A stretch of 64,000 nt of DNA, taken from Halovenus carboxidivorans. GTDB lineage: Archaea; Halobacteriota; Halobacteria; Halobacteriales; Haloarculaceae. The position numbers and the translations under genes were made by a program. Positions 12,424-16,046 of this stretch are shown piece by piece. The stretch spans positions 705,345-769,344 of the forward strand of contig NZ_WUUT01000001.1 of the NCBI RefSeq assembly GCF_009831575.1. The letters are read 5' to 3'. Each line of letters begins with the position of its first letter. The first letter of the stretch is position 1. Under the pieces are notes generated by a model. The model had not been told where the DNA came from. It worked only from the letters and a program-made list of their open reading frames with translations, and searched no databases.

Positions 12424-13659
12424 TCAGCACCACCGTTCGTACTGGTACGCGCGGGCCGGGTTGTGCGACTGCGGCGCCCGGTCGGTGTCGTCGTAGCGCT
12501 CGCGGTGTTGCTCGTAGCCGATGCTCAGGTCCCCCTCGGGGTCGAACTCGCGGGGGAGCGTCTCCTCGGCCTTGCGCCTGTTCCAGCCCGCGAGTTTCCG
12601 GAGCGCGGTGTCGTCGCCCAGATCCTCGATTTCGAGTTCGGACGCGGCGGCATCGAGCGCGTCGGCCCCTCGCTCGCCGCGGACGACGAAGGTCGTCGCG
12701 TCGTCCGGGCTGGCGACGTTGCCAGCGGCAATATCGGCCGCTCGGCCGGTGAAATCCGCACACTCCTCACAGCCGGGCAGTCCGGCCGCGTCGAACGCCT
12801 CGACGTCCGTTTCGAGCAGCGTCTCCGACTCGCCGTAGGCGAACAGTTTTCCGTCGGCCACGTCGAGGTGATCGACCGCCTCGGGTTCGACCCCGTGTTC
12901 GACCAGAAGCGAGGTCAGCCGGTCGTACTCGAAACTGCGGGTGCAGAACAGCGCGACCGTCAGCGCGATCTCGCTGCCCTCGCCCGGTCGCCCGAACGAC
13001 TCCAACGCTTTCGCGCCCTGGATCACACACGGCGTGCCGACCAGCGCCAGATCCGGATCGTCGAGGTCGGATTCACCGACCACGCGGTCGATCTCGCCGA
13101 GTTGCATCGTCTGGTTGAAGATCGACCCGCCGCTTTCGAGCAACTCCTCGCGGCTGGTCGCGAGCATCGCCTCGCCGCGCAGCGGTTCGTCCTCGCGCTC
13201 GCGAGCGACGACGGCACCGTCGATCTCGCCGGCCTCGAGCAGGCCCGCGAGCAGCGCCGTCACCGCGCCGCCGTCCTGTCCGGCCTCCCGTGCGGAGTCG
13301 TCGTCGGCCCGGACGGCGTAGGCGCTGGTCGATCCCTCGCGGTTCGCTTCGGTCTCCTCGATGACCCGCTCGTACCGGAGGCCGCTGCGGGGGCAGAAAT
13401 CCCAACAGCGCGAACAGCCGGTACACATCTTCACGAGCGTCGGTTTACCGTCAATCTCGTCGATCCCGATGGAGTCGGAGGGACAGGCCGCCGCACAACT
13501 CCCACACTGGATACAGCGGTCGGCCTCGATGACGGCCTCGTCGAGGTCACGGAACCGGATCTTTCCCGGCGGGGTGTTCGTGTCTTTGTGCTCTCGGGGA
13601 TCGTCTCCCACCCCGGGCGAGCGGGGCAGGTGGTCAGTTCGGTTCTCTCCTTTCGACAT
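12424..13659 (-). CDS. FrhB/FdhB-like F420 hydrogenase beta-subunit family iron-sulfur flavoprotein
   Basis: 411 residues. The N-terminal 90 residues hold two [4Fe-4S] ferredoxin motifs: Cys49/52/55/59 (CIQCGSCAAACP) and Cys79/82/85/89 (CTGCSRCWDFCP). The remainder matches the FrhB/FdhB N and C domains: QDGGAVTALLAGLLEAGEIDGAVV and ALVGTPCVIQGAKAL are characteristic. Proteins of this family bind FAD and exchange electrons between F420H2 and ferredoxin-type clusters. The start codon shares one base with the stop of the upstream siroheme reductase (TGATG), so coupling is tight. I infer that it delivers electrons, probably from F420H2, to that reductase, a two-gene counterpart of the fused F420-dependent sulfite reductase of methanogens. 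Confidence 0.9.
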   Translation of the reverse strand: MSKGENRTDHLPRSPGVGDDPREHKDTNTPPGKIRFRDLDEAVIEADRCIQCGSCAAACPSDSIGIDEIDGKPTLVKMCTGCSRCWDFCPRSGLRYERVIEETEANREGSTSAYAVRADDDSAREAGQDGGAVTALLAGLLEAGEIDGAVVAREREDEPLRGEAMLATSREELLESGGSIFNQTMQLGEIDRVVGESDLDDPDLALVGTPCVIQGAKALESFGRPGEGSEIALTVALFCTRSFEYDRLTSLLVEHGVEPEAVDHLDVADGKLFAYGESETLLETDVEAFDAAGLPGCEECADFTGRAADIAAGNVASPDDATTFVVRGERGADALDAAASELEIEDLGDDTALRKLAGWNRRKAEETLPREFDPEGDLSIGYEQHRERYDDTDRAPQSHNPARAYQYERWC

Positions 13660-16046
13660 CAGTCATCGGCCTCCGTTGGTGTCGCAGTCGATTCGGCCCG
13701 GTCGGTCACGAGATCGAACAGCCGTTCCCGGGGTGTCTGTTCGACCCAGACGCTGAACGGTTCGTCCTCGGTGTCCGCCGCGTAGGCGTCGAGTACCCGC
13801 CGGACCGCGTCCGGCAGGTCGGCGGTCGGGTGGCTACCGACGATCCAGTCGATGAACCGTTCCCGGCCCAGATCACCGCCGAGTCCGACATCGACCGCCG
13901 GTTCGCTGCCCTCGATGGTGCGGCGATCCTCGCCGCGCAGGCCGATGTCGGCGATCTGCGGCTGCGCACAGGAGGCCGAACAGCCGGAGAGATGCATCCG
14001 GATCGCGTCCGGGTCGGCGGGACCGTCGTACTCCTGTTCGTACCACTCGTCGAGTTCGCGGGCCCACCGCACCGCCCGGTTTTTCGTGTTGATGATGCCG
14101 TAGGTGCAGTACTCCTTGCCGGTGCAGGCCAGCACGCCGCGCGTGAACGGACCGGGGTCGGGGCTGTACCGCTTGACGACGGGATCCTCGCGCAACTGCT
14201 CGACCTCGTCGGGAGCGACGCCCGGCAGCACGGCGTTCTGGTTGAGCGTGACCCGCACCTCGCCGTTGCCGTACTGCTCCGCGAGGTCAGCGAGACGCGC
14301 GAACTCCGCGCCGCCCATCCGGCCGACCGGGACGTTCAGCCCCACGTAGCGGTTGCCGTCGGCCTGCTCGTGGACGCCGACGTGGTCGCCGCGGTAGCGC
14401 TCGGTGAGTCCCTCGCCGGCCGACTCGAACTCGAAGGACGCCCGGGCCTCGATCTCCTCGCGGACGGTCTCGACGCCCATCTCCGCGACCAGGAACCGCA
14501 GGCGGTTGACCGCCGTGTCGAGGTAGCTCCCGTGATCGATGAAGAAGTCCGCGGCGGCCTCGACCAGATCGACGACCTGGTCGGGTTCGACGAACAGATC
14601 GAGGTCCCGAGCGATCCGCGGTCCGTCCGAGAGCCCGCCACCGATCTTGGCGTTGAACCCGACCCGACCGTCCTTCCGGGCGGGGAGCAGACCGAGGTCG
14701 TTGATCTCCGCCCGGGCACAGTTCTCGTGACAGCCGGTGACGGAGACTTTGAACTTCCGCGGGAGGTTCGCGTAGTGCTCGTCCCCGAGGAACCGTTCGG
14801 TCACCCTGTCGGCGACCGACTGCGCGTCGAGTTCCTCCTCGGGATCAAGTCCCGAGACGGGACAGGCGACGACGTTGCGGACGGAGTTGCCACAGGCCTG
14901 CATCGTCGTCAGTCCGACCTCGTCGTACCTGTCCCAGATCTCCGGCACGTCCTCCAGTTCGATCCAGTGCATCTGGATGTCCTGGCGGTCGGTGATGTCG
15001 AGATACGCGTCGCCGAACTCGGCGTTCTGCTCTGCTCCGCCGTACTCCTCGGGGGCGGTCGCGAACTCGTCGGCGACTTCCCCGATCACGCGGGCCTGCT
15101 CGGCGGTCAGGTTCCCGCCGGGCACCTTCGTCCGGAGCATGAAGTAGCCGCGCTGTTTCTGGTGGTAGAGCCCGATGAGTTTCAGGCGGTCGAGCACGCC
15201 GTCGCCGTGGGCGTCGACCAGCGCCTCGAACCCCTCGTCGGCGTACTCCCGGACCTGCTGTTCGAGCCCCTCGGGACTCCAGTCGTCGGACTCCTCGCGG
15301 ATCCAGTCGGTGAGACTTCCCTCGTAGGCATAGACCGATTCGTACCCCAACTCGGAGAGGACGGCGTAGGTGTGGCTCAGCCGACGGGCCGTGTTACAGT
15401 ACAGCACGATTTCGCGGTCCGCGTCCAGGCCGCGGTCGGCGAGCATCCGTCGGATCTCCTCGCGGTCTTTGAGCGAGCCGTCGGCGACCAGATCCTCCCA
15501 GCCGAGCTGGACCGCGCCGGGAATGTGGGCGGAGTCGTACTCCGCGGCCGAGCGGGTGTCCACGAGCACCGTCTCGTCCTCGTCCACCGCGGTCTCGACG
15601 CGCTCGCGGCCGACGACGGGCGATCCGGGCTCGTCGGCGTCGTAGCTCGCGGCTTCGTCTCCCTCGACCGGTCCGGTCTCGGTCTCGTAGCTGTCGCTCC
15701 AGTCGTCGTAGCCGCCGTCGAGCAGGTACAACTCGCCCTCGTGGCCGAGGGCCGCGGCGGTCAGCAACAGACGGGCGGCGTAGACGCCCGGCCCGTCGTC
15801 GTAGGCGACTATCGGCGTCTCCTCGTCGATACCCGCCTCGGCGCACAGTCCGGCGAATTCCGCCGGAGTCGGGAGGTGACCCGCCGTCCCGCTCGTCGGG
15901 TCCCTGATCGCCTCGTACGGGACGTTCACCGCGCCCGGAACGTGTCCGACGGACTCGTAGCTGTTCTCGTCGCGAACGTCGACGACCGCTACCTCGTCGC
16001 GGTGGTCGTCGAGCCACGCCGGACCGACGACCGACACGTCACTCAT
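13659..16046 (-). CDS. Rhodanese-rhodanese-siroheme sulfite/nitrite reductase fusion
   Basis: 795 residues in three parts. Residues about 5-125 are a rhodanese domain with Asp83 where the active cysteine should be, so inactive. Residues about 140-255 are a second rhodanese with active-site Cys217 (YCNTARRLSHTY). Together they look like a complete two-domain thiosulfate sulfurtransferase. Residues about 270-795 are a nitrite/sulfite reductase with duplicated ferredoxin-like and catalytic halves: YFMLRTKVPGGNLT, GNSVRNVVACPV, VTGCHENCARAEI, and the siroheme-[4Fe-4S] ligands Cys641-x5-Cys647 and Cys689-x3-Cys693. Siroheme reductases carry out six-electron reduction of sulfite to sulfide or nitrite to ammonia. 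The fused sulfurtransferase favours sulfite released from thiosulfate (inference). It is the first gene of a two-gene operon with the FrhB-like protein. Confidence 0.92.
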   Translation of the reverse strand: MSDVSVVGPAWLDDHRDEVAVVDVRDENSYESVGHVPGAVNVPYEAIRDPTSGTAGHLPTPAEFAGLCAEAGIDEETPIVAYDDGPGVYAARLLLTAAALGHEGELYLLDGGYDDWSDSYETETGPVEGDEAASYDADEPGSPVVGRERVETAVDEDETVLVDTRSAAEYDSAHIPGAVQLGWEDLVADGSLKDREEIRRMLADRGLDADREIVLYCNTARRLSHTYAVLSELGYESVYAYEGSLTDWIREESDDWSPEGLEQQVREYADEGFEALVDAHGDGVLDRLKLIGLYHQKQRGYFMLRTKVPGGNLTAEQARVIGEVADEFATAPEEYGGAEQNAEFGDAYLDITDRQDIQMHWIELEDVPEIWDRYDEVGLTTMQACGNSVRNVVACPVSGLDPEEELDAQSVADRVTERFLGDEHYANLPRKFKVSVTGCHENCARAEINDLGLLPARKDGRVGFNAKIGGGLSDGPRIARDLDLFVEPDQVVDLVEAAADFFIDHGSYLDTAVNRLRFLVAEMGVETVREEIEARASFEFESAGEGLTERYRGDHVGVHEQADGNRYVGLNVPVGRMGGAEFARLADLAEQYGNGEVRVTLNQNAVLPGVAPDEVEQLREDPVVKRYSPDPGPFTRGVLACTGKEYCTYGIINTKNRAVRWARELDEWYEQEYDGPADPDAIRMHLSGCSASCAQPQIADIGLRGEDRRTIEGSEPAVDVGLGGDLGRERFIDWIVGSHPTADLPDAVRRVLDAYAADTEDEPFSVWVEQTPRERLFDLVTDRAESTATPTEADD

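Follow-up and report, generated by a model that had tools for sequence, protein, structure and literature searches.

What does a haloarchaeal gene that joins two rhodanese domains to a siroheme reductase do, and where do its substrate and electrons come from? This question was raised by a 64,000-nucleotide window of the Halovenus carboxidivorans genome (contig NZ_WUUT01000001.1, positions 705,345 to 769,344), on the minus strand of which an open reading frame (ORF) with an ATG start and a TGA stop encodes a 795-residue fusion protein and overlaps the gene for an FrhB-like partner. Judging from sequence, we consider it fairly probable that the two overlapping genes specify an assimilatory sulfite reductase of the aFsr kind, with two subunits and F420H2 as its reductant, and that a thiosulfate sulfurtransferase (TST) has been added to the N-terminus of the siroheme subunit. 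At the level of sequence, the proposal rests on the order of the domains, conservation of the catalytic residues, constancy of the gene pair, a single origin of the fusion, the location of unfused relatives among sulfate-assimilation genes, and F420 biosynthesis in every fusion genome tested.

The first-pass annotation of this DNA had described a single chain of two rhodaneses and an intact siroheme-[4Fe-4S] reductase, and the ORF and Pfam analysis agreed with it: two Rhodanese, two NIR_SIR_ferr, and two NIR_SIR matches were obtained, every one well past the cut-off, and the cluster-binding cysteine motif was complete (Table 1). Sequence comparison with the PDB matched residues ~6–250 to two-domain sulfurtransferases and residues ~282–770 to plant nitrite reductases (the best matches) and M. 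tuberculosis NirA. In an AlphaFold2 model of the fusion protein (mean predicted local distance difference test score 80.6, predicted template modelling score 0.69), the top structural match of the siroheme half was M. tuberculosis NirA/SirA (1zj8), with a Z score of 43.5 and a root-mean-square deviation (rmsd) of 2.3 Å over 502 residues.

Table 1. Features of the fusion gene and its partner, numbered from the first nucleotide of the window
Feature	Position	Strand	Description
Fusion gene (aFsr-alpha)	13659..16046	minus	Two-domain TST-like region and NirA/SirA-type siroheme reductase, 795 residues
Rhodanese domain 1	15672..16037	minus	Residues ~4–125, non-catalytic, Asp83 where the catalytic Cys would stand
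Rhodanese domain 2	15291..15608	minus	Residues ~147–252, predicted catalytic domain
Active-site loop Cys217-N-T-A-R-R222	15381..15398	minus	Identical in 32/32 fusions
Siroheme sulfite/nitrite reductase half	13707..15263	minus	Residues ~262–780, two NIR_SIR_ferr/NIR_SIR repeats
K431-F-K433, sulfite-type substrate lysines	14748..14756	minus	Asn at 433 in nitrate-operon NirA
Siroheme-[4Fe-4S] motif C641-x5-C647 ... C689-x3-C693	13968..14126	minus	Intact
TGATG stop/start overlap of fusion and partner genes	13657..13661	minus	
Partner gene (aFsr-beta)	12424..13659	minus	Ferredoxin-like 4Fe-4S domain, FrhB_N and FrhB_C, F420H2-oxidising type by homology, 411 residues

A search for the same domain order, which the annotation had proposed, revealed 31 full-length fusions in 30 of 391 haloarchaeal genomes, spread over several families, and the fusion is therefore not an assembly accident. 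One further fusion was found in a Natronomonas metagenome-assembled genome; the other named carriers are Natrinema versiforme, Natronococcus occultus, and Halomontanus rarus. Nearly all of the remaining strong matches in the 391 genomes were unfused siroheme proteins with 41–55% identity. Phylogenetic analysis of 84 siroheme halves, including 32 fused, 30 unfused haloarchaeal, and 7 Rubrobacter/Thermomicrobia sequences, placed all of the fused halves in one clade (support 100), which makes a single fusion event the simplest account of the distribution. This clade stood beside the unfused haloarchaeal and Rubrobacter/Thermomicrobia members and was separate from both the nitrate-operon NirA proteins and a KWK group without FrhB, while the FrhB-linked siroheme proteins, fusions included, together formed a 69-row clade (support 93). 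One genome (G347) carried two different fusion copies (L104 and L107), and in two related genomes (L096 and L101) the fusion was divergent from a heavy-metal P-type ATPase gene, with a DsbD_2 gene close by.

For the sulfurtransferase half, the annotation had assigned a catalytic-type cysteine to position 217 of the second rhodanese and an aspartate in place of cysteine to position 83 of the first. Cys217 was correctly placed and invariant in the 32 fusions, all of which kept an intact active loop, CNTARR (C217–R222), also present in a group of standalone haloarchaeal TSTs. Asp83 was right for this protein and proved to be no family feature, as position 83 was Asp in 21 fusions, Gly in 10, and Cys in 1; the catalytic cysteine was confined to the second rhodanese in all fusions but the last. 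In the rhodanese-half tree the standalone CNTARR group was the nearest kin, and a single origin of the fused rhodanese half appeared in 45% of the bootstrap trees. The standalone CNTARR genes often lie divergently, beside a second TST with the loop CRIGER.

Thiosulfate is the likely sulfur donor, in view of the two loop arginines and the logic of the fusion. The annotation had likewise read the protein as a thiosulfate assimilation enzyme, and two genomic observations were in keeping with this: ATP sulfurylase (Sat) was found in 0 of the 30 fusion genomes, and in one complete genome (G043, a single contig, 98% complete) the fusion was the only siroheme reductase. We rejected sulfate activation as the sulfite source on the basis of the former result, but the absence of Sat does not separate fused from unfused forms, since few haloarchaea have the enzyme at all (7 of 292). 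A search for the CysH family was clouded by other PF01507 proteins and gave one clear CysH-like match (G171), and no close match to the CNTARR-type standalone TST was found in G043.

The strongest competitor, to which we assign a modest but real chance, retains the F420-dependent sulfite reductase and changes the chemistry of the rhodanese pair, which would use another donor (3-mercaptopyruvate or a protein or thiol persulfide) or run backwards, turning sulfite and sulfane sulfur into thiosulfate and so buffering toxic sulfite. Rhodanese reactions are reversible, and the classical TST loop is CRxGx[R/T], from which CNTARR differs. Among solved structures, the nearest sulfurtransferases include the M. 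tuberculosis proteins CysA2/CysA3 and the mercaptopyruvate enzyme SseA of E. coli, and CysA2 is reported to use both donors (PMC6856128). 3-Mercaptopyruvate or a persulfide may be the donor; against this, the two arginines of the loop speak for an anion, for instance thiosulfate, a sulfite reductase is the most economical fusion partner for an enzyme whose first product is sulfite, and a haloarchaeal thiosulfate route has been proposed independently (PMC3402447).

The annotation had also called the enzyme self-contained, which did not stand: the overlapping FrhB-like gene, which it had not included, very probably encodes the route by which electrons arrive from F420H2. Such a gene lay directly downstream of every one of the 32 fusions and of the 30 sampled unfused relatives from haloarchaea; among the bacterial relatives this was so in 6 of 7, the seventh locus being cut off by the end of its contig. 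The TGATG overlap suggests translational coupling, and because the partners of the fusions also formed one clade (support 100), in a pattern mirroring the siroheme-half tree, the two genes appear to have moved as a unit. The best PDB matches of the partner included F420-dependent sulfite reductases (7np8, E 6e-42), with FAD (flavin adenine dinucleotide) and cluster motifs in common, and this homology with Fsr indicates its likely electron route. CofE, a protein of F420 biosynthesis, was present in all 30 fusion genomes.

F420-biosynthesis genes also adjoined the unfused pair in two separate lineages. At the Rubrobacter-type loci L063 and L065 the pair was surrounded by CofD, CysH, APS (adenosine 5'-phosphosulfate) kinase, and TauE, with ATP sulfurylase in addition at L063 and CofC and CofE in addition at L065; in Halarchaeum and Halobonum it lay behind CofC and a radical-SAM gene. 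The FrhB-like protein might alternatively be a ferredoxin-type adaptor that does not use F420, which would make the fusion an ordinary ferredoxin-dependent sulfite reductase. We regard this as unlikely: related haloarchaeal siroheme enzymes without FrhB do exist and presumably use ferredoxin, and F420 has been detected only in small amounts in non-methanogenic archaea, halophiles included (PMC8305020), but the partner has FrhB_N and FrhB_C with FAD and cluster motifs conserved as in Fsr, and the F420-biosynthesis neighbours just described point the same way. F420H2 is thus probably the electron donor.

Several side observations concern these pairs. A conserved ORF of ~116 residues without a Pfam match (L063:10907-11257) lies between FrhB and ATP sulfurylase in the Rubrobacter loci, and a KFK siroheme protein without FrhB, a separate assimilatory type, adjoins ATP sulfurylase at L027 (G057:C37). 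FrhB partners of unfused haloarchaeal aFsr (e.g., L114:9736-11430) have an N-terminus extended by a long stretch of low complexity, which often includes a Cys-rich CGCGSSCGC-like motif; neither the partners of the fusions nor the bacterial partners possess this extension. A rhodanese hidden in this extension was considered and discarded, the extension being low-complexity and Cys-rich and giving no Pfam match. The first siroheme repeat of the fusion has four cysteines (C385, C395, C439, and C443) without counterparts in plant nitrite reductase; unfused and bacterial aFsr keep all four without exception. An additional [4Fe-4S] cluster at this site was considered as a point of electron entry found only with the FrhB pair; this specificity was rejected because C385 is missing from 14 of the 32 fusions and the other three cysteines also occur in nitrate-operon NirA.

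Sulfite, rather than nitrite, had been the predicted substrate of the siroheme half, and the residue comparison agreed with this. In MjFsr, Arg355, Arg423, Lys460, and Lys462 bind sulfite and are kept across sulfite reductases (PMC10229431); their equivalents in the fusion, assigned by motif without superposition, are R305, R390, K431, and K433, which were invariant in all fusions, as was R354. Position 433 was Asn in paralogues beside nitrate-assimilation genes, such as that at L115, whose neighbours are a NasA-like oxidoreductase, major facilitator superfamily transporters, and SUMT, and one in Halobaculum that adjoins nasA. Besides the fusion, the genome containing the window encodes an unfused aFsr and, in a nitrate operon, a separate NirA. 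The annotation had named the presence of the fusion within nitrate-assimilation operons as evidence that would speak against it, and no such operon was found among the fusion neighbourhoods examined. From these comparisons we infer that sulfite is the substrate, and the common annotations "ferredoxin--nitrite reductase" (the NCBI name) for the unfused relatives and "rhodanese-like domain-containing protein" for the fusion are probably misleading. That the protein is mainly a nitrite reductase of the NirA family, with an accessory rhodanese aiding Fe-S cluster upkeep, is very improbable and was rejected, since the plant enzymes among its top PDB sequence matches, the NCBI name of its relatives, and one fusion adjoining nosZ are set against Lys433 in place of the Asn of nitrate-operon paralogues, the operon context, the separate NirA of the same genome, the company of CysH, Sat, and APS kinase kept by bacterial relatives, and a best structural match, M. 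tuberculosis NirA/SirA, that is described as a sulfite reductase by assay.

Other observations weigh against the proposed thiosulfate-fed sulfite reductase. CNTARR matches neither the classical TST nor the mercaptopyruvate sulfurtransferase motif, which leaves the sulfur donor uncertain and allows the region to be called only TST-like. Most fusion genomes also carry an unfused aFsr, so that the role of the fused enzyme must be a special or conditional one. Next to the fusions, neither a thiosulfate transporter nor any other sulfur gene was conserved. Siroheme sulfite reductases often also reduce nitrite, and on plasmid 2 of Natronococcus occultus the fusion and its partner (L149:5001-12364) immediately precede nosZ and nosD, all four genes having the same orientation; a link to denitrification or copper genes was nevertheless dismissed, as nosZ neighboured just one fusion. 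Finally, the inter-domain geometry of the AlphaFold2 model is unreliable, and its two rhodanese lobes superposed poorly (rmsd 7.6).

Under the proposed F420H2-dependent mechanism, the rhodanese pair would bind thiosulfate, and Cys217 would take the outer (sulfane) sulfur as a persulfide, freeing sulfite beside the siroheme domain. The partner would oxidise F420H2 at its flavin (FAD), and its [4Fe-4S] clusters would carry the electrons on to the siroheme, where a six-electron reduction would turn sulfite into sulfide. The sulfur of the persulfide would be transferred to a cellular thiol acceptor or freed by reduction, so that both sulfur atoms of thiosulfate would become usable. Direct transfer of sulfite between the domains is speculative. 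The fullest version, in which one complex converts thiosulfate and F420H2 into two sulfide-level sulfurs, carries out both steps in one polypeptide without releasing sulfite, and serves haloarchaea without genes for sulfate activation as their main thiosulfate route, is a tentative extension that we hold to be less likely than the assignment of the gene pair itself.

Both halves of this picture have precedents. A putative F420H2-dependent assimilatory sulfite reductase of haloarchaea, aFsr, was described as an aSir subunit with an F420H2 dehydrogenase subunit (Susanti and Mukhopadhyay 2012, PMC3448663), in a text that mentions neither rhodanese or sulfurtransferase nor thiosulfate. The fusion pair resembles it in combining an aSir-type siroheme subunit with an Fsr-N-type F420H2 dehydrogenase subunit, and shares its traits: a duplicated aSir/NirA-type siroheme subunit with C-x5-C-xn-C-x3-C, and adjacent ferredoxin-like clusters with FrhB. 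Unlike the common haloarchaeal aFsr, it has a two-domain sulfurtransferase in front, falls in a separate clade, and has a partner without the long Cys-rich N-terminal extension. Methanogen Fsr (7np8, 7npa; PMC10229431) likewise couples an F420H2 oxidase to a siroheme sulfite reductase, and the N-terminal half of Fsr is homologous to the partner, but Fsr is one chain with a single, dissimilatory-like siroheme repeat, whereas here two chains and a duplicated assimilatory-type siroheme protein with a TST are present. M. tuberculosis SirA/NirA (1zj8), the closest fold to the siroheme half, has no fused rhodanese, and nitrate-assimilation NirA differs from the fusion in its nitrate reductase and transporter neighbourhood and in Asn433.

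A 2024 survey reported that 19 of 529 halobacterial NirA proteins are fused to rhodanese (cluster 195.2) and suggested a role in sulfur metabolism (PMC11237513); these are very probably the same proteins as the fusions described here. The available part of that survey does not discuss the F420 partner, the active-site residues, the two-domain TST architecture, or the operon context. A 2012 genome paper noted the absence of the APS/PAPS (3'-phosphoadenosine 5'-phosphosulfate) route from sequenced haloarchaea and proposed that thiosulfate is converted to sulfite by TST and then to sulfide by sulfite reductase (PMC3402447). The Natronomonas pharaonis/Natrinema route in that paper has the same two steps, in separate genes there and in one chain here. 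The fusion architecture (PMC11237513) and the separate-gene pathway (PMC3402447) had thus already been published, and a literature search for rhodanese-siroheme fusions under other wording found nothing further. What is new is the joining of aFsr, the rhodanese-NirA fusion, and the TST route in one picture, with residue, tree, and neighbourhood evidence.

Sulfide formation in haloarchaea is an open question, as most of these archaea lack the classical genes that lead from sulfate to sulfite (PMC3402447), and the role of F420 in these organisms has been called enigmatic (PMC8305020). The fusion puts the two reactions proposed for thiosulfate use into a single gene and connects them with F420, and the genome in which it is the only siroheme enzyme would in principle make a clean knockout possible.

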